From NCBI GenBank assembly GCA_025057015.1, contig JANWYG010000013.1:1-40992 (forward strand): a stretch of 40,992 bases of DNA. Reading direction: 5' to 3'. The notes under the pieces are model-generated. The model had not been told where the DNA came from. It saw nothing but the letters and a program-made list of their open reading frames with translations, and ran no database searches. Source of the DNA: Blastocatellia bacterium (GTDB taxonomy: Bacteria; Acidobacteriota; Blastocatellia; Chloracidobacteriales; JADJPF01). Shown here piece by piece: positions 4,411 to 40,992 of this stretch. Every line of letters begins with the position of its first letter. The first letter of the stretch is position 1. Both the position numbers and the translations under genes were made by a program.

Positions 4411-4483
4411 ACTCTCTCCAACGACTCATTTAGAATAGGATTGATACTAGCATGTGGAACAGCTTCGTGATACTTTTTTTGGT

Positions 4484-5554
4484 ATGTACAAACCAGACGT
4501 AGATATCTGCAGTGTCTCAAAGACGTTTGACGAGTCTAAGGTAATAGACAACGTTTCACTACAGGTTGAGCCAGGCGAGTTTCTAACCTTACTAGGGCCT
4601 TCTGGCTGTGGAAAGACTACTCTGCTACGCCTGATAGCAGGCTTTGAAACACCCACATCAGGCCGTATCTTTCTTAGAGGGGAAGAAGTCACCTATGTTC
4701 CTCCCTACAAACGTAACGTTCACACTGTTTTTCAACAGTATGCCCTCTTTCCACACCTAACCGTAGCAAGAAACGTTGCCTTTGGCCTAGAACGGCGCAA
4801 GTTATCCAGCAGCGAAATAGCCTTTCGAGTACGTGCCGCACTTGAACTAGTACGCTTGTCAGGATTCGAGGATCGCTATCCAGCGCAACTATCAGGCGGA
4901 CAACAGCAGCGCGTAGCCATAGCCCGAGCGATAGTACTTGAACCAAAAGTGCTACTTCTTGACGAACCGCTGAGTGCTCTTGACCTCAAGCTACGACGCG
5001 AGATGCAGATAGAGCTAAAGAACCTGCAACGCCGCCTTGGCATAAGTTTCATTTACGTCACCCATGATCAGCAAGAAGCACTTGCTATGTCAGACCGCAT
5101 AGCAGTCATGCGAGCCGGAAAGATAGTACAAATTGGCCCAAGCGCTGAAGTTTACGACAAACCTAGGACACCTTTCGTAGCCGATTTCATAGGAGAAGCA
5201 AACATCCTCACTGCTAAGATAGTAGATTCTTGTAACAAGCGGTTAACGTTAGAAGTACACGGCAGAAAAATGGAAATTACAACTGACATTCATCCTACGG
5301 AAGCGACCGTGAAAATAGCCATAAGGCCAGAAAAGATATCTTTGTCGACACAGAACGGCTGTACAGCTATTCCAGGATTAATAGAAGAGCGACTTTATCT
5401 TGGAGACTCTACTCAGTGGCGCATCCGGCTAGACGAAGGCCACATAGTGACAGTAGTAGAGCAGGGTCAAACGAATCACCGCTGCAACAAAGGTGACAGA
5501 GTATACTTGAGCTGGAACGCAGAAGCAACCGTACTTCTAGAGGAAGATGCTTGA
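4484..5554 (+). CDS. potA: Polyamine-type ABC transporter ATP-binding subunit
   Basis: Cytoplasmic ATPase that powers the importer encoded by the next two genes; spermidine/putrescine is the likely substrate by family. Visible motifs: Walker A GPSGCGKTT, Q-loop FQQYALFPHLTV, signature LSGGQQQR, Walker B VLLLDEPLSALD, H-loop VTHDQQEA, and a C-terminal TOBE-like region with IRPEKISL. The length of 356 aa is normal for PotA-type ATPases. The start is uncertain. ATG 4484 begins MYKPDVDICSVSKTF, close to where the conserved domain begins. An in-frame GTG at 4454 would add 10 residues (AGGA about 13 nt upstream). Neither start has a good ribosome site. A -10-like GATACT at 4469-4474 raises the possibility of a nearly leaderless mRNA. 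The stop overlaps the potB start by 1 nt. Related putative osmolyte or Fe/thiamine importers share these motifs. Confidence 0.9.
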   Translation: MYKPDVDICSVSKTFDESKVIDNVSLQVEPGEFLTLLGPSGCGKTTLLRLIAGFETPTSGRIFLRGEEVTYVPPYKRNVHTVFQQYALFPHLTVARNVAFGLERRKLSSSEIAFRVRAALELVRLSGFEDRYPAQLSGGQQQRVAIARAIVLEPKVLLLDEPLSALDLKLRREMQIELKNLQRRLGISFIYVTHDQQEALAMSDRIAVMRAGKIVQIGPSAEVYDKPRTPFVADFIGEANILTAKIVDSCNKRLTLEVHGRKMEITTDIHPTEATVKIAIRPEKISLSTQNGCTAIPGLIEERLYLGDSTQWRIRLDEGHIVTVVEQGQTNHRCNKGDRVYLSWNAEATVLLEEDA

Positions 5555-6408
5555 TGACAGCTCGAACTACTGCTTACTTGCGACACTCCCTACAAGTGCT
5601 ATCACTGCTTGGACCGGCGCTAGGCTGGCTATTACTTTTCTTTCTAGGCCCGCTACTAGTAATGCTAGTCTATAGCTTCGCCGAACGCGGCACATACGGC
5701 GAAGTAATTTATGCTCTAAGTCCCACAAACTACCTTCAAGCACTCAAACCGATATACTTGCTCATCTACTGGAGATCTTTCTGGCTTGCACTCACTACAA
5801 CACTGCTGTGTCTCTTACTTGCCTACCCGGTAGCATATTTCATAGCCTTAAAGGCACCCAAGCAATGGAAAAGCACGCTGCTAGTGCTCTCTGTCATACC
5901 TTTTTGGACAAGTTTCCTGGTAAGAACCTACGCCTGGGTAGTGCTGCTACGTACGGAAGGCGTAATCAACTCAATCTTAGTCACGCTAGGCTTCTCACCG
6001 CTCAAGCTGCTCTATACTGACTTTGCCGTTCTGATAGGATTAGTCTATGGCGAGTTGCCTTTTATGCTGCTACCGATTTACGCTTCTATAGAACGCCTAG
6101 ATCTGCAGCTACTAGAAGCAGCAAAAGATCTTGGAGCTACTCCTCTTGAAGCTTTTCTATATGTAACCTTGCCACTTACTCGAGCAGGCATAATTACCGG
6201 CATAACGCTGTGTTTCATTCCTTCGTTAGGTATGTTCATAACTTCCGACATGCTCGGTGGTGCCAAGGTGTTGATGATAGGTAACCTCATACAAAACCAG
6301 TTTGTACAACGTAATCAGCCGTTTGGAGCTGCTTTGTCTTTCCTGCTTACTGGTGTCGTACTGCTGCTACTTTGGATAAGCCTGCGTGCAGGCGCAAAGG
6401 TAAGATGA
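5554..6408 (+). CDS. potB: Polyamine-type ABC transporter permease, PotB-like
   Basis: Inner-membrane permease of 284 aa with about six hydrophobic segments. The first is at residues 14-38 (LGPALGWLLLFFLGPLL). The EAA cytoplasmic loop that docks onto the ATPase is clear near residues 185-205 (EAAKDLGATPLEAFLYVTLP). ATG 5554 shares one base with the potA stop (TGATG) and has AGGAAG 7 nt upstream, a better choice than the in-frame TTG at 5551. The order ATPase, permease B, permease C plus binding protein matches potABCD operons, so the three genes form one importer. Substrate specificity is not proven by the sequence. Confidence 0.9.
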   Translation: MTARTTAYLRHSLQVLSLLGPALGWLLLFFLGPLLVMLVYSFAERGTYGEVIYALSPTNYLQALKPIYLLIYWRSFWLALTTTLLCLLLAYPVAYFIALKAPKQWKSTLLVLSVIPFWTSFLVRTYAWVVLLRTEGVINSILVTLGFSPLKLLYTDFAVLIGLVYGELPFMLLPIYASIERLDLQLLEAAKDLGATPLEAFLYVTLPLTRAGIITGITLCFIPSLGMFITSDMLGGAKVLMIGNLIQNQFVQRNQPFGAALSFLLTGVVLLLLWISLRAGAKVR

Positions 6409-8213
6409 CAGATCGCTTGCTGAAGATATTTACCGCTGTCACCTACGCCTTCCTCTACATTCCTATCGGTGTCCTCGTCGTCCTTTCTTTCAACGACTCG
6501 AAATACAGTAGCGCTTGGCGAGGGTTTACTTGGAAATGGTATATAGCTGCTTGGAACAACTCGGCAATAATCGATGCTTGTCGCACTAGCTTACTGGTAG
6601 CTCTCTTCTCTACGGCTATCTCCACCATAATAGGCACAGCAGCAGCAGTGGCCATAGTACGCCTGCGCTTCAGGTTCAAAGCAGCCGTAGAATCGCTCTT
6701 CTACCTTCCTGTAATAGTCCCAGAAATAGTAGTCGGATTTGCTACTGTGATAATGTTCAGCCTGCTAGGGCTAAAGCTAGGACTTTCAACAATAGTTATA
6801 GCACACGTCGCATTTACTCTCTCTTACGTGATTTTCATCATCAGAGCTAGACTTATCAGCATAGGCCAGGTGTTTGAACAAGCAGCTATGGATTTGGGAG
6901 CGACCGAGCTTCAAGCCTTTCTACTGGTCACTTTGCCGATGCTTATGCCTGCAGTAGTATCTGCAGCTCTGCTTGCGTTTACGCTTTCGCTGGATGACTA
7001 CGTGATCACCAGCTTTGTCGCCGGAGGCAACTACACCACTCTTACTCTACAAATCTATTCTATGGTCAAGACAGGCGTTACGCCAGAAATAAACGCCATC
7101 TCGACCATACTACTTGTGGTAACAATCCTGCTCGTATGGGTATCAAAACAGCTTGAAAAGGAGCGTCCACCCCGTTCAGCCTACCTAGTAGCAGTGCTTA
7201 CACTCTTCGCTCTGCTGGTATTTGCCGCAAGTGGCACAACTAGGAGCACCAGTCAGCGGCAGCTAAACCTCTATATTTGGTCAAACTATATCTCTAAAGA
7301 AGTCGTCAGACGTTTCGAACAACGCTATAACGTACGTGTCAATATAGAAACATACGAGTCCAACGAAGCATTACTTGCGAAACTCCAAAGCGGCATAGTC
7401 GATTATGACATAGTCGTGCCTAGCGACTACATGGTCGGCGTGTTGATAAAACAAGCGCTATTACAACCACTAGACAAAGATGTTCTTTCAAATCTATCCC
7501 ACATAGATGATAAGTTTCTCTCTCCGCCATACGATCCGGACAACCGCTACTCCATACCCTACACTTGGGGCACTACAGGTATAGGCTATCGCAAAGATAA
7601 AGTAGAGGCTCCAACCAGTTGGAAAGCCATGTGGGACGTTCGTTATAAAGATCGCATCTCGATGCTAAACGACATGAGGGAAAATTTCGCTGTAGCACTC
7701 AAACAGCTAGGTGTAAGCGTAAACTCGATAGATGAAAGCAAACTAGCCGAAGCTGCAAAGCTACTCAAACAGCAAAAGGAGTTTGTGAAGACCTACGATA
7801 GCGACACATTCACAGAAGCGCTGCTATCTGGCGAAGTTTGGCTAGCACAAAGCTACAGTGGTCAAGTAGGTAAAGCAATGCTCGAAGATCCAAACATAGG
7901 CTACGTAGTGCCATCAGAGGGGTCTACCATTTGGACCGACAATCTTTGCATACCAAAGACTGCTCCGCATCCAGAGCTAGCTATGCTATTTATCAACTAC
8001 TTACTAGAGCCAGAAGTCGCTGCAGAGAACTGTAACGCGATAGGTTACGCCACGCCTAACATTGCTGCTAAGGATCTGATCCGCAGAGAATTTATAAGCA
8101 ATCCAGCTATATTTGCCGATGAAGATACGCTAAAAAGGTGCGAATTTATGCAGGATCTCGGCAGCAAACTACAGCTCTATGACAAGCTCTGGACTGAGAT
8201 CAGATCCGACTGA
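6405..8213 (+). CDS. potCD: PotC permease fused to PotD-like substrate-binding protein
   Basis: The product is 602 aa. ATG 6405 overlaps the potB stop by 4 nt (ATGA) with AAAGG upstream. Residues 1-250 are a PotC-type permease, with six membrane segments and an EAA loop at about 159-181 (EQAAMDLGATELQAFLLVTLP). A basic linker (KQLEKERPPR, about 248-257) precedes a seventh hydrophobic segment (258-275). From about residue 287 a PotD-type extracellular solute-binding domain runs to the end (LNLYIWSNYIS, VPSDYMVG, IPYTWGTTGIGY). Six helices leave the chain in the cytoplasm, and the extra helix would carry the binding domain outside, so the fusion makes topological sense. No separate potD follows. 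Permease/binding-protein fusions named PotCD are known in some bacteria such as mycoplasmas. I see no frameshift or stop at the junction. Confidence 0.93.
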   Translation: MTDRLLKIFTAVTYAFLYIPIGVLVVLSFNDSKYSSAWRGFTWKWYIAAWNNSAIIDACRTSLLVALFSTAISTIIGTAAAVAIVRLRFRFKAAVESLFYLPVIVPEIVVGFATVIMFSLLGLKLGLSTIVIAHVAFTLSYVIFIIRARLISIGQVFEQAAMDLGATELQAFLLVTLPMLMPAVVSAALLAFTLSLDDYVITSFVAGGNYTTLTLQIYSMVKTGVTPEINAISTILLVVTILLVWVSKQLEKERPPRSAYLVAVLTLFALLVFAASGTTRSTSQRQLNLYIWSNYISKEVVRRFEQRYNVRVNIETYESNEALLAKLQSGIVDYDIVVPSDYMVGVLIKQALLQPLDKDVLSNLSHIDDKFLSPPYDPDNRYSIPYTWGTTGIGYRKDKVEAPTSWKAMWDVRYKDRISMLNDMRENFAVALKQLGVSVNSIDESKLAEAAKLLKQQKEFVKTYDSDTFTEALLSGEVWLAQSYSGQVGKAMLEDPNIGYVVPSEGSTIWTDNLCIPKTAPHPELAMLFINYLLEPEVAAENCNAIGYATPNIAAKDLIRREFISNPAIFADEDTLKRCEFMQDLGSKLQLYDKLWTEIRSD

Positions 8214-32603: not shown

Positions 32604-32682
32604 CTTAAAAAAAATACCATTAGAGTAGCAAAAGTGGTAAACTCTCAGACCACGGACAGGTATCCTTTCCGGAGGTCAGCTC

Positions 32683-32997
32683 TTGGACATCGACGACTGG
32701 CGCGAAGAGATAGACAGAATAGATCTAGAACTGCTAGAGCTGCTCAACAGGCGTTCGCGCTGCGCAATCGAGATAGGATACATAAAACACCGTATGGGAC
32801 TGCCCATCTACTCTCCCTCGCGCGAGACTGAGATTCTAGAAAACGTCACACGTAACAACAGAGGCCCACTCGAAAATGATGCTGTAAGAAGGTTGTTCGA
32901 ACGGATTATAGACGAATCTCGTCGAGCCGAGCGACTTGTAGTTGAAAGCCTAAAGGAAAACAGCAGTGATAGTAGTGATGCAGCAGAGGGCAACTGA
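32683..32997 (+). CDS. Chorismate mutase, AroQ class
   Basis: Converts chorismate to prephenate, the branch to phenylalanine and tyrosine. The product is 104 aa and all-helical. It contains WREEIDRIDLELLELLNRRSRCAIEIGYIKHRMGLPIYSPSRETEIL-type AroQ sequence with R7, R24, K35, R47 and E48 at active-site positions. The position matching Q88 of the E. coli enzyme appears to be Glu (E83 in DESRRAERL). TTG 32683 is taken as start because GGAGG lies 7 nt upstream and the family's first helix begins there. The last 32 nt overlap the DAHP-synthase-like gene, so the two are coupled. AroQ is often fused to, or partnered with, DAHP synthase, which fits the neighbour. Confidence 0.9.
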   Translation: MDIDDWREEIDRIDLELLELLNRRSRCAIEIGYIKHRMGLPIYSPSRETEILENVTRNNRGPLENDAVRRLFERIIDESRRAERLVVESLKENSSDSSDAAEGN

Positions 32998-33970
32998 AGA
33001 AGAGATTTCGCAAGTAATAGAAAAGCTGTTGAAGCTTGGCTTTGATCCTTATAGATCGACAGGAGCAAGTCTCTCCATCATCGCAGGTGTAGGCAATTGT
33101 TTCGTAGACGTCCGGGAGATAGAAATGATGGCTGGCGTAAGGAAAGTAATACGCGTCTCGACGCCTTACAAGCTTGCTAGCCGCGAGATACACCCTACGG
33201 ACACTACTTTCGCCATAGGTAACGGAGAATTCAAGATAGGAGCTGGTTACTTTTCGGTGTTTGCCGGTCCGGCAGCAATAGAATCTGAAGTAGAACTAGA
33301 AGCCCTCTGCGACTTGGTCAAGAACTTCGGTACAGGCGTTCTAAGGTCACGAGCCACTCTACAGCTGGAAGACGGGCGCATAGTTGGTCTTGGCAAAGAC
33401 AGTTGGAAGCTTCTCAGAAAATACGCTGACCGCTTTCAGCTGTACGCCGCATCTGAGGTTAACTATCCTGAAGAGCTAAGCCAAGCAGCAGAATATCTAG
33501 ATGTAATAGAGATATCCGCCAGCCATAACCATGAGTTTCTCAGGCAGATTGGCATGCTAGGCAAGCCAACACTGCTTGTGCGTGCTCCTGAAACTACGAT
33601 AGAGCAAACGTTGATATCAGCAGAGCAGATATTGTCGGCAGGAAACGATAGAGTTATTATCTGTGATAGAGCAGTGCGGACTGTCCAAGGGGGCAGCACA
33701 ATAGACATAGACTCTATACTGAAGCTCAAGAAGATCTCCCATTTACCGCTAGCCTTGGACGCTTCGGCTGCAGCAAACAGGAAGGATCGTGTGGCAGCAT
33801 ATGCAGCAGCAGCTCTAGTTGCAGGCGTGGACGTGCTACTAATAGAACTATACTCTGAATCAGGCACTGGGGAAGCTGCAAGGGCTCTAGCCGCAGAAGA
33901 TTTTGCAGTGTTGATAACACAGCTAAAGGGTATTGCTAAGATCTTAGGTAGACAGAATATTTGCATGTAA
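32966..33970 (+). CDS. DAHP synthase-like protein (type I-beta) lacking catalytic residues; probable pseudoenzyme
   Basis: The product is 334 aa and follows the whole length of type I-beta 3-deoxy-7-phosphoheptulonate synthases. The N-terminal ferredoxin-like domain starts MIVV...ATEEEI, then VRKVIRVSTPYKLASREIHP and FKIGAGYFSVFAGP. The barrel shows GLGKDSWKLLRKYADRFQLY, LDVIEISA, ILSAGNDRVIICDRAVRT and ISHLPLALDAS. Key catalytic motifs are changed. GPCSVE is GPAAIE, so the metal Cys is A103. RxxAYKPRTS is RSRATLQLED (127-136). The Lys of LLKRG is Val in LLVRA. DPSH is DASA, so the metal His is A268. Activity as DAHP synthase is therefore unlikely. The GTG start gives the family's MIVV beginning and has AAAGG upstream. 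It overlaps the chorismate mutase gene by 32 nt. A regulatory partner role is inferred. Confidence 0.85.
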   Translation: MIVVMQQRATEEEISQVIEKLLKLGFDPYRSTGASLSIIAGVGNCFVDVREIEMMAGVRKVIRVSTPYKLASREIHPTDTTFAIGNGEFKIGAGYFSVFAGPAAIESEVELEALCDLVKNFGTGVLRSRATLQLEDGRIVGLGKDSWKLLRKYADRFQLYAASEVNYPEELSQAAEYLDVIEISASHNHEFLRQIGMLGKPTLLVRAPETTIEQTLISAEQILSAGNDRVIICDRAVRTVQGGSTIDIDSILKLKKISHLPLALDASAAANRKDRVAAYAAAALVAGVDVLLIELYSESGTGEAARALAAEDFAVLITQLKGIAKILGRQNICM

Positions 33971-34066: not shown

Positions 34067-36568
34067 ATGATTGGCACGCAAGTCTCACATTACAAAATAC
34101 TCAAAAAACTCGGCGAAGGTGGACAAGGCGAGGTTTATCAGGCCGAGGATCTGACTCTAAGGCGTACCGTAGCCATAAAATTCCTGCCAGCGGAACTAGG
34201 CGCTGATGAAAAAACCAGAAAGCGCTTTCTGAGAGAAGCTCAATTAGCCTCAGCACTGGATCACCCCAATATCTGCACCGTATATGAGATAAATGAGCAC
34301 AAAGGAATGTATTACATAGTAATGCAGTTCCTAGAAGGGAAGCGCCTCAAGCAAATGGTGCGCAACAAACCCCTCGATCTGGACTCAGCCCTTTCGATAG
34401 CCAAGCAGCTTGCTGACGCTCTAGCAGCTGCGCACAGGCGGGGAGTGATACATCGCGATATAAAAGCCACGAACATAATAGTGAATAACGAAGGTGTTGC
34501 TAAGATCCTGGATTTTGGACTAGCAAAAGCCACTAACAGCAGCATAGGTGACAGAACAGTAATGGAGCTCACTCAGCGCGGAGTGCCTTTTGGTACGGCA
34601 GGTTACATGTCCCCAGAGCAAGCCAGAGGTGGCGACATAGACCACAGAACAGATATCTTCTCGCTAGGAGTCGTGTTGTACGAAATGGTAGTAGGCAGGC
34701 TCCCCTTTAGTGGCAAGTCGAGCGTCGAAGTGATGCATTCCGTACTACACGACAAGCCGGTACCAGTCACCGAAATTGATCCCTCACTACCACCCCGCCT
34801 ACAGCAGATCATAGAAAAGGCGATGGCAAAAGATCCATCAGCCCGCTACCAGAGTATGGAAGATTTCTATAAGGATATCATTGAACTCAAGCGAGAGCTG
34901 AATCCGGTGCACAGTGAGGAAGAACGTCCATCGACACTTAGGCATAAGAAAAGCTCCTGGTTGCCAAGCGGAATGATGGACAGGATATACAGGTTTTTCC
35001 GCAGCTCCCGCGATATAACGGTGTCATCTCATCCTAAACCACCGATTGAAACACCTGCACCAGCTGAATCTCTGCGCTCGACCGTCGCAGACGCAGCGCA
35101 AGATGCTAGCCCGTCCACTCCATCTACTTGGAAGGCAGCTACAGATAGAAAAAGATCCATCGCTATACTGCCATTTAAGAATCTCAGTAAGGACGCGGAA
35201 AGTGATTTCTACAGCTTTTCTCTAGCAGATGGCGTCATTACAGAGCTCGCAATACTTAAATCTCTCGTCGTAAGGCCTTCTAGCTACATAGCCAAGTATA
35301 TAAACTCCAACGCAGATCCTCAAGTAATAGGCAAAGAGCTGGCCGTAGATGCAGTCCTCGTAGCTACCTATCTCAAATCTGGCAACCGTTTTCGTGTCAC
35401 TCCCCAGCTCATAGACATAGGTTCGGGCGAGATTATATGGAGCGATAAGATAGATATAGACCATAGCGACATCATATCCCTACAGGACAAGATCTCGCAC
35501 GAGATAGTTCGCGGGCTTGCACTGCAACTAACCGAGAGCGAGGAAGACAAGCTCAAGCGCAAGAAGACTGGTAGCAGCGTAGCCTATGAACTTTATCTCA
35601 AAGGTAGAAACTCCTACTACAAGTTCGTCCAACAAACGCTCAAACGGGAAGATATAGAAGAAGCAGTCAAACTTTTCCAACAAGCTATAGCAGAAGACGA
35701 AAAGTTCGCTCTAGCCCATTCTTCGCTCGGGAACTGCTACGTGTCATACGTGCTAAAAGGCTTAGGCGGTGCAAGTTACTATGAACTTGCCAAGGATGCT
35801 TTTGAGAAAGCTTTACAACTTGACCCCTTACTAGTAGACGCCCAGCTCGGCATGATTTACATACACTTACAGCGAGGGCGTAAAGCAGAAGCAAGGGAAA
35901 AGATACGCAACTTGCTGAAAACAGCCGGTAATGACTCCAAAGTACACTCTACAGCAGCGACGCTTTTCCGCCTAGACGGCCTGTATAAGCAAGCCCTAGC
36001 AGAGTACAAAACTATGCTGCGAATAAATCCAAACGACTTGGTATTCGTAAAGTATAACTCTGCCCGCCTCTTCCTCTATCAGAAGAACTTCCAAAGCGCT
36101 CTGTCGGAACTAGAATCCGCTCTCACTATAGAACCAAATCACTGTTTAGCAAACGTCTTCCTTGGACAAGTCTTGTACCATAGAGGCGATATAGATGAAG
36201 CAATAGATGTTCTCTCAAAGACTCTAGAAAGAAATCCAGAAGTACACGCCATAAGACCCATCCTTGCTATGTGCTACAGCGCCAAAGGAGAACACGAGAA
36301 AGTACTTCCGTTGATTACTCCTCAGGTAATAGACACCGCCTCTGCAGATCATGATATTGCCTACTGGTTAGCCTCGGTATATGCCTTAGAAGGAGACAGA
36401 GACAAAGCTATCAAATGGTTTAAGAAGTCTATCTTTCTTGGCAATGAGAATTACCCGTGGTTCATAAGCGACAAAAATTGGGATGGCCTCAGAAATGACG
36501 CCGAGTACCTAAGCATACTAGAACAGCTGCGAATACAATGGGAACAGCTTAGCGCCGAGAGCTCCTAG
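34067..36568 (+). CDS. Ser/Thr protein kinase with FlgO-like/LADG domain and TPR repeats
   Basis: The product is 833 aa. The kinase domain spans about 8-275, with glycine loop LGEGGQGEVY, K38 (VAIKFLP), catalytic loop HRDIKATN (usual P is A), DFGLAKA, the APE-type GYMSPEQARG and RTDIFSLGVVLYEM. The linker (about 290-360) is Pro/Ser-rich. I see no convincing membrane helix, so it should be cytosolic, unlike PknB. About 362-485 is the domain with SIAILPFKNLS, SLADGVITELAILKSLVVRPSSY and RVTPQLIDIGSGEIIWSD, often seen behind acidobacterial kinases and adenylate cyclases. About 505-830 is a TPR array (AVKLFQQAIAEDEKFALAHSSLGNCY, ALAEYKTMLRINPNDL, AIDVLSKTLERNPEVHA). The ATG lies at the first conserved strand. 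It precedes a phosphatase and an FHA gene. Confidence 0.95.
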   Translation: MIGTQVSHYKILKKLGEGGQGEVYQAEDLTLRRTVAIKFLPAELGADEKTRKRFLREAQLASALDHPNICTVYEINEHKGMYYIVMQFLEGKRLKQMVRNKPLDLDSALSIAKQLADALAAAHRRGVIHRDIKATNIIVNNEGVAKILDFGLAKATNSSIGDRTVMELTQRGVPFGTAGYMSPEQARGGDIDHRTDIFSLGVVLYEMVVGRLPFSGKSSVEVMHSVLHDKPVPVTEIDPSLPPRLQQIIEKAMAKDPSARYQSMEDFYKDIIELKRELNPVHSEEERPSTLRHKKSSWLPSGMMDRIYRFFRSSRDITVSSHPKPPIETPAPAESLRSTVADAAQDASPSTPSTWKAATDRKRSIAILPFKNLSKDAESDFYSFSLADGVITELAILKSLVVRPSSYIAKYINSNADPQVIGKELAVDAVLVATYLKSGNRFRVTPQLIDIGSGEIIWSDKIDIDHSDIISLQDKISHEIVRGLALQLTESEEDKLKRKKTGSSVAYELYLKGRNSYYKFVQQTLKREDIEEAVKLFQQAIAEDEKFALAHSSLGNCYVSYVLKGLGGASYYELAKDAFEKALQLDPLLVDAQLGMIYIHLQRGRKAEAREKIRNLLKTAGNDSKVHSTAATLFRLDGLYKQALAEYKTMLRINPNDLVFVKYNSARLFLYQKNFQSALSELESALTIEPNHCLANVFLGQVLYHRGDIDEAIDVLSKTLERNPEVHAIRPILAMCYSAKGEHEKVLPLITPQVIDTASADHDIAYWLASVYALEGDRDKAIKWFKKSIFLGNENYPWFISDKNWDGLRNDAEYLSILEQLRIQWEQLSAESS

Positions 36569-40362: not shown

Positions 40363-40992
40363 TTAAAGACGACCCTCGAGCTTTTTCTTGATTAGCAGTT
40401 CTGCCAAATCTGGCACCACCTCCCACGCTATCTCACGAACCACGTTCTCTGACATTTGAGCTATTGTACGCCTAACTATCTCATCTATCAGCTGCTGAGG
40501 TATCTGATCCAAAGTCAGGTTTTTAAGATCAACAACAACCGAAGCGGCTGGCATAGGTGCAGAGGAAACATCTGTCCTTGCTGTATATCCAGGAACTGCA
40601 TCAACCACACTACGCTCAGCCTCGTAGCTAGTTTCAAACCCACTGACTTGACGATCAGCAGTGGATAAAACCCCTCCCTCAAGGCCAGAACGTGTCTCAG
40701 CTACTTCCGAAGCTGCCAATTGAGCTTCGCTTGCTGCAGGCGTCTCAAACTCAGCTCGCTGCTCTTCTACTGCTGCTTGCGTCTCTAACACTTCTCCTTG
40801 CGAAACCTCTGCCTCTGCTACAGGCGCTTCAAATTCAAACTCAGCTCGCTGCTCTTCTACTGCTGCTTGCGTCTCTAACACTTCTCCTTGCGAAATCTCT
40901 GCCTCTGCTACAGGCGCTTCAAATTCAAATTCAGCTCGCTGCTCTTCTACTGCTGCGTGCGTCTCTAACACTTCTCCTTGCGAAATCTCTGC
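40363..40992 (-). CDS. Repeat-containing protein with conserved C-terminal helical tail; 5'-truncated by window edge
   Basis: The frame stays open to base 40992, so the N-terminus lies beyond the window; about 209 codons are visible. The visible N-terminal part is a Glu/Ala-rich 30-residue repeat (ETQAAVEEQRAEFEFEAPVA, then EAEVSQGEVL), nearly three copies. A linker follows (about 100 residues, with VAETRSGLEGG and APMPAASVVVDL). The last 57 residues contain QIPQQLIDEIVRRTIAQMSE and VVREIAWEVVPDLAELLIKK. This tail resembles the C-terminal helix found on some deltaproteobacterial and acidobacterial response-regulator-like proteins. A receiver domain upstream is therefore possible but not seen. 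A coiled coil or disordered acidic spacer is likely in the repeat part. Confidence 0.8.
   Translation of the reverse strand, partial: AEISQGEVLETHAAVEEQRAEFEFEAPVAEAEISQGEVLETQAAVEEQRAEFEFEAPVAEAEVSQGEVLETQAAVEEQRAEFETPAASEAQLAASEVAETRSGLEGGVLSTADRQVSGFETSYEAERSVVDAVPGYTARTDVSSAPMPAASVVVDLKNLTLDQIPQQLIDEIVRRTIAQMSENVVREIAWEVVPDLAELLIKKKLEGRL
40751..40992. repeat. 90-nt in-frame tandem repeat, about 2.7 copies to window edge
   Basis: The 10-mer TCAGCTCGCT recurs at 40751, 40841 and 40931, exactly 90 nt apart, and the sequence between is almost identical (a few single-base differences). It encodes the 30-residue repeat of the truncated minus-strand gene. The array continues past the window. 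Confidence 0.95.

Follow-up and report, generated by a model that had tools for sequence, protein, structure and literature searches.

A DAHP synthase-like pseudoenzyme gene that overlaps a chorismate mutase gene probably encodes a regulatory partner rather than an enzyme

The window, a stretch of 40,992 nucleotides from a Blastocatellia bacterium, carries a full-length copy of DAHP synthase (DAHPS), the first enzyme of the aromatic pathway, in which, judging from the sequence, the catalytic centre is replaced and the amino-acid-sensing domain is preserved. Since this copy overlaps the only chorismate mutase (CM) gene of the genome, its product is probably a regulatory partner and not an enzyme. 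The initial annotation had proposed a maintained but catalytically dead homologue, and this proposal is supported by copies with intact motifs elsewhere, by purifying selection in a parallel case in another family, and by a rate shift confined to the barrel. It had not mentioned the overlapping CM gene, the parallel case, or the decayed sensing domain of a catalytic paralogue, which together point to a partner.

The DAHPS-like gene is located at positions 32966 to 33970 of the forward strand and was characterized by ORF reading, Pfam, NCBIfam, PDB alignments, and AlphaFold2. It starts with GTG and encodes 334 amino acids with no internal stop, and a Shine-Dalgarno-like AAAGGA (32952 to 32957, read directly) lies 8 nt upstream of the start; the long, undisturbed frame described previously is therefore borne out. 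The product is indeed a full-length homologue of the type I-beta DAHPSs. Both Pfam domains, ferredoxin-like FXD (PF18152, 51.5 bits) and DAHP_synth_1 (PF00793, 89 bits), exceeded their cut-offs, and the top solved relative was the Thermotoga DAHPS (1rzm), which was matched over its full length with an E value of 1e-52. The protein is approximately 35–41% identical to its orthologues and scored under every curated NCBIfam DAHPS cut-off (208 versus 335 for PRK08673 and 147 versus 268 for TIGR01361). It consists of a preserved N-terminal ferredoxin-like, aromatic amino acid-sensing domain (residues 1–66, 32966 to 33163), a preserved hinge beginning PYKLASREIHP (residues 67–85, 33164 to 33220), in which PYKL is invariant in the alignment, and a (beta/alpha)8 barrel (residues 86–330, 33221 to 33955) whose fold is kept and whose catalytic residues are replaced. 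The AlphaFold2 model showed a complete two-domain fold (pLDDT 87.9) with lower confidence at the former catalytic loops; its nearest solved structures were those of the Thermotoga DAHPS (Z 38 to 1rzm; barrel alone 1.7 A from 3pg8).

The roles of the catalytic residues and the four metal ligands were taken as listed in PMC6362186. Alignments, including that with the Thermotoga enzyme, showed that every replacement claimed initially is real: Ala103 (33272 to 33274) stands in place of the metal-ligand Cys, TLQLE (residues 131–135, 33356 to 33370, register uncertain by one) in place of the KPRTS substrate loop with its K131, R133, T134, and S135, Val205 (33578 to 33580) in place of the active-site Lys of LLKRG, and Ala268 (33767 to 33769) in place of the metal-ligand His of DPSH. 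In addition, Glu303 (33872 to 33874) replaces the metal-ligand Asp of (S/C)DG and adjoins a two-residue deletion common to the orthologue in G003, another genome of the same family, and R186S removes the PEP-binding Arg of GARN. The metal-ligand columns Cys, His, Glu, and Asp thus read Ala, Ala, Glu, and Glu. Arg127, Glu164, Arg206, Arg235, Asp265, and Glu294 are kept; of the PEP and E4P residues, which include the Arg of ERG, Arg127 and Arg235 are thus retained. The catalytic columns were practically invariant in approximately 170 other homologues inspected, with some redundancy between sets, so chance or misalignment can be excluded. It is very likely from these replacements that the protein has lost DAHPS catalysis. 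The nearest exception to the invariance was a Ktedonobacter racemifer homologue (L139, 6001-7071), which has KPSTS and DPSQ for KPRTS and DPSH and is perhaps another impaired form.

Catalytically erased forms were found in two groups of genomes. Erosion has gone further still in the orthologue of G003, which, as in the window, is followed by kinase, phosphoesterase, and FHA genes; its barrel is only 29% identical to that of the window protein. Deletions and replacements are common to the two genes, so the erasure is probably older than the divergence of the two lineages. A different erased form was seen in family f7, in five genomes belonging to genera g46 and g47. In this form, Cys is Ser or Gly, KPRTS has become R[ASI]S[NS]D, and Arg stands in place of both Lys and His; the gene adjoins CM and a TyrA-like gene. 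In the tree, the f7 pseudo clade was placed with the intact f7 sequences (97/89), and a single origin of both pseudo-lineages was borderline rejected (AU p 0.048). This grouping, together with the different substitutions and deletions of the two pseudo-lineages, favours two origins, and the f7 erosion is apparently independent of that in G003 and the window genome (G000). The end branch of the window gene is long (2.3–2.6 changes per column), and the placement of G000 and G003 is unsure given such long branches. No further erased lineage was found in 60 additional phylum loci; a scan of 80 loci in genome contigs used conserved-motif patterns and was thus biased against erased forms.

The replacements are unevenly distributed over the protein. 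Among 83 strongly conserved columns (conservation of at least 95% in 36 intact relatives), all seven in the N-terminal domain and hinge were retained, versus 39 of 76 altered in the barrel. The window protein is 46–55% identical to intact orthologues in the N-terminal domain and 36–37% identical in the barrel, and G003 shows the same reversal. In the f7 pseudo clade, too, the N-terminal domain is more conserved than the barrel, which is the reverse of most intact pairs. The barrel/N-domain branch-length ratio was 3.4 for the window gene, 4.3 for G003, approximately 2.9 for the f7 pseudo clade (added up manually from tabulated branch lengths), and 0.78 for intact branches. The sensing domain is therefore under normal constraint, and the catalytic domain has been released. 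Both G000 and G003 carry Tyr at position 29, in place of the His of intact orthologues and the f7 pseudo clade, whereas position 31 retains the Ser that, with Thr, is found nearly always across the phylum. These positions of the Thermotoga DAHPS are presumably its effector-binding residues, and Tyr29 to Ser31 (33050 to 33058, from alignment columns) constitute the putative site in the window protein. In the Thermotoga DAHPS, the ferredoxin-like domain is where Tyr or Phe is bound (PMC5526877). It is plausible that aromatic amino acids also bind the putative N-terminal site here, with Ser31 kept and His29 changed to Tyr.

An AroQ-class CM gene (32683 to 32997, forward strand; TTG start, 104 amino acids; Pfam CM_2, 87 bits) is located directly upstream of the DAHPS-like gene and overlaps it by 32 bp. 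It is preceded by a Shine-Dalgarno-like GGAGG (32671 to 32675, read directly), and good ribosome-binding sequences stand before both genes. This CM was the only CM_2 match in G000, in which a search for an AroH-class CM found none. As judged by eye, it retains the residues that an AroQ enzyme needs to act alone, and it is 54–72% identical to most of the CMs adjoining intact DAHPSs in the class. Its best solved matches were the CM domains of fused CM-DAHPS enzymes. CM and DAHPS are fused in other bacteria (PDB 5j6f, 3nvt), and the NCBIfam model of the CM-DAHPS fusion (PRK12595) matched both window genes. In a phylum-wide survey of DAHPS loci that took the best-scoring matches only, a CM-like ORF shared a fragment with DAHPS at 27 of 29 and 43 of 60 loci; many of the relatives are named Acidobacteriota in the genome contigs collection. 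The gene order in related families is trp genes, trpA, CM, DAHPS, and prephenate dehydrogenase (families named by reading sequences). In G003 both genes are present, with the erased DAHPS apart from CM, which follows trp genes on another contig. No full-length orthologue of the window gene was matched in family f2, which belongs to the same taxonomic order and whose members have CM; CM thus does not always need a DAHPS of the window type.

Downstream, a Ser/Thr protein kinase gene with TPR repeats (34067 to 36568, forward strand), identified by Pfam and locus comparison, is the neighbour conserved in G003; the kinase is probably outside the mechanism of the DAHPS-like protein. Elsewhere in the window, polyamine-type ABC transporter genes are found at 4454-8213, with the permease and substrate-binding protein apparently fused in a 613-aa ORF (6372-8213), and an ORF on the reverse strand (40363-40992) encodes near-identical repeats of approximately 30 residues (LETQAAVEEQRAEFEFEAPVAEAEVSQGEV) and runs off the window end. 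A plasmid search returned unrelated neighbours only, a peroxiredoxin and a carboxymuconolactone decarboxylase.

The content of aromatic pathway genes differs among the genomes. G001 and G002, which belong to one genus of the family of G000, gave no match to CM_2, AroH-class CM, prephenate dehydratase, or the window-type gene, suggesting Phe/Tyr auxotrophy, although absence in incomplete genomes is weak evidence. Prephenate dehydratase is present in G000, and TrpA and PDH_N gave no match there, with the same reservation for an incomplete genome; the organism may lack Trp and Tyr synthesis. The pair of CM and DAHPS-like genes therefore survives where only the Phe branch seems to be kept.

The best explanation, to which we assign an approximately even chance, is that the DAHPS-like protein serves as a non-catalytic regulatory or scaffold subunit, most likely of CM. 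Its gene descends from the DAHPS gene located directly after an AroQ CM gene in most of the Acidobacteriota inspected. In the lineage of G000, DAHPS catalysis has very likely been lost, with the fold and the N-terminal domain of the Tyr/Phe-binding type retained. The protein would associate with the CM encoded by the overlapping gene and tune its activity according to aromatic amino acids, and DAHP would be supplied by the intact paralogues. In favour of this explanation are the replaced catalytic residues, the unchanged constraint on the N-terminal domain beside a faster barrel, and the purifying selection seen in the f7 pseudo clade (omega below). As for the partner, the CM is the only one in the genome, is strongly conserved, is linked or fused to DAHPS elsewhere, and is absent together with the DAHPS-like gene from G001 and G002, whereas G000 retains the pair despite having no TrpA or PDH_N match. 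Against it count the split pair of G003, the CM of f2 with no matched orthologue of the window gene, and the apparently self-sufficient CM. In Mycobacterium tuberculosis, CM is highly active only when complexed with DAHPS, and the response to Phe and Tyr is a property of the complex alone (PMC7762937); in the Porphyromonas enzyme, the DAH7PS and CM domains are each impaired once they are separated (PMC12202928).

A search for a separate intact DAHPS, which the initial annotation had suggested, revealed in G000 two additional homologues that carry the catalytic motifs, and also a KDO8P synthase; as far as the motifs tell, these two DAHPSs would cover the reaction. One of them, a divergent homologue (G000:C8:117007-117879; L003; L260 1921-3057), has GLCAVD, KPRTS, LFKRG, and DPSH, and its gene has a 4-bp overlap with that of a protein that appears to combine a response-regulator receiver with a Ser/Thr kinase. 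In C13 (G000:C13:216359-217357; L010, L259), the main catalytic paralogue, the barrel is normal, with 68% mean identity to relatives, and the N-terminal domain is decayed, with 31% mean identity versus 58–70% in others. It is thus the mirror image of the window protein, with the barrel intact and the sensing domain decayed. This raises the possibility, which we consider unlikely but the most serious of the alternatives, that the DAHPS-like protein partners C13, either in addition to CM or in its place, forming mixed oligomers and supplying the aromatic sensing that C13 has lost. Subunits of type I-beta DAHPSs such as that of Thermotoga assemble via their barrels and N-terminal domains, which favours such a pairing, and there is a precedent in a plant TSB-like pseudoenzyme that activates TSA (PMC12727527). 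However, the catalytic paralogues of the other pseudo-lineages were checked for such complementary decay and showed none; it is specific to G000, and the catalytic DAHPSs of G003 and the f7 pseudo-lineage retain an N-terminal domain with the usual motifs. Moreover, the two genes are on different contigs, and the barrels are highly diverged for mixed oligomers. A combined version seems doubtful: the two halves of a regulated DAHPS would be split between the G000 paralogues, and the dead copy, made with CM, would act in trans as an allosteric sensor shared by the first step of the pathway and the branch point to Phe.

The window protein might instead have been neofunctionalised as an enzyme or binder with a new ligand or reaction, involving the retained Arg127, Arg206, Arg235, Glu164, Asp265, and Glu294; we regard this as rather improbable. 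Several arginines of the phosphate- or carboxylate-binding kind remain in the barrel, whose predicted structure is confident apart from the loops. On the other hand, G003, the nearest relative, which has diverged in the barrel to the extent given above, has lost most of the residues retained in G000 (there is no Arg127, Glu164 is changed to Arg, and Arg235 to Gln), which leaves no new site conserved between the two.

Still less probable is a gene in decay that a stop or frameshift has yet to break. No genome is close enough to G000 for selection to be tested directly, and its end branch is as long as such a reading would have it. However, the frame is open in both G000 and G003 after a very deep divergence, the codon-position composition resembles that of the neighbouring genes, and the N-terminal domain and hinge are conserved at the normal rate. 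Divergence between G000 and its nearest relative is saturating, and omega was therefore taken from the f7 pseudo clade; the dN/dS check advised initially could thus be carried out on this parallel clade, in which omega was 0.06–0.14. This indicates strong purifying selection and counts against decay. In codons 34–66 of the f7 erased genes (L035, L036, L038, L039), synonymous divergence was low relative to the rest of the gene (pS 0.23 within g47), which may reflect hidden constraint or chance; this dip was given no weight because tyrA shows similar dips. Finally, that the protein is still an active DAHPS working with substitute residues is scarcely credible: the fold is intact, Glu294 is kept, and a Glu occupies the Asp column, but Ala stands at two metal-ligand positions, the E4P loop has been lost, most of the residues that bind PEP have been exchanged, and reported DAHPSs are all metalloenzymes (PMC6362186).

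The proposed CM partnership can be compared with known systems. The Thermotoga maritima DAHPS has the same two-domain architecture but keeps the catalytic metal, PEP, and E4P residues and the His29 that the window protein lacks, and the window gene differs in overlapping a CM gene. In the CM-DAHPS complexes of M. tuberculosis and Corynebacterium glutamicum, a separate AroQ CM is under an aromatic-sensing partner of the DAHPS fold (PMC7762937), as would be the case here; however, that partner is an active type II DAHPS, whereas the window partner is a catalytically erased type I-beta protein. The fused CM-DAHPS or DAHPS-CM enzymes of Bacillus, Listeria, Geobacillus, and Porphyromonas comprise the same two domains, which are known to be interdependent (PMC12202928), whereas the window genes are separate and overlapping, with the DAHPS part erased and bearing a ferredoxin-like N-terminal domain. 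The eudicot TSB-like pseudoenzyme, a paralogue of an aromatic-pathway enzyme, is no longer catalytic but still activates its partner allosterically (PMC12727527). The window case differs in enzyme, organism, and partner, and its regulatory action is proposed from sequence. The trypanosome prozyme is another catalytically dead activator. A literature search, with most subscription journals outside its coverage, found no DAHPS pseudoenzyme.

DAHPS controls the entry of carbon into the aromatic amino acids. Domain matches alone would annotate proteins of this type as DAHPS. If the proposed role is true, the DAHPS fold has been kept here only for regulation, and its allosteric or scaffolding role would be separable from catalysis. 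Such a regulation-only fold would then have evolved apparently twice, each time in a CM-linked copy, and would offer a natural system for inter-enzyme allostery free of confounding activity.
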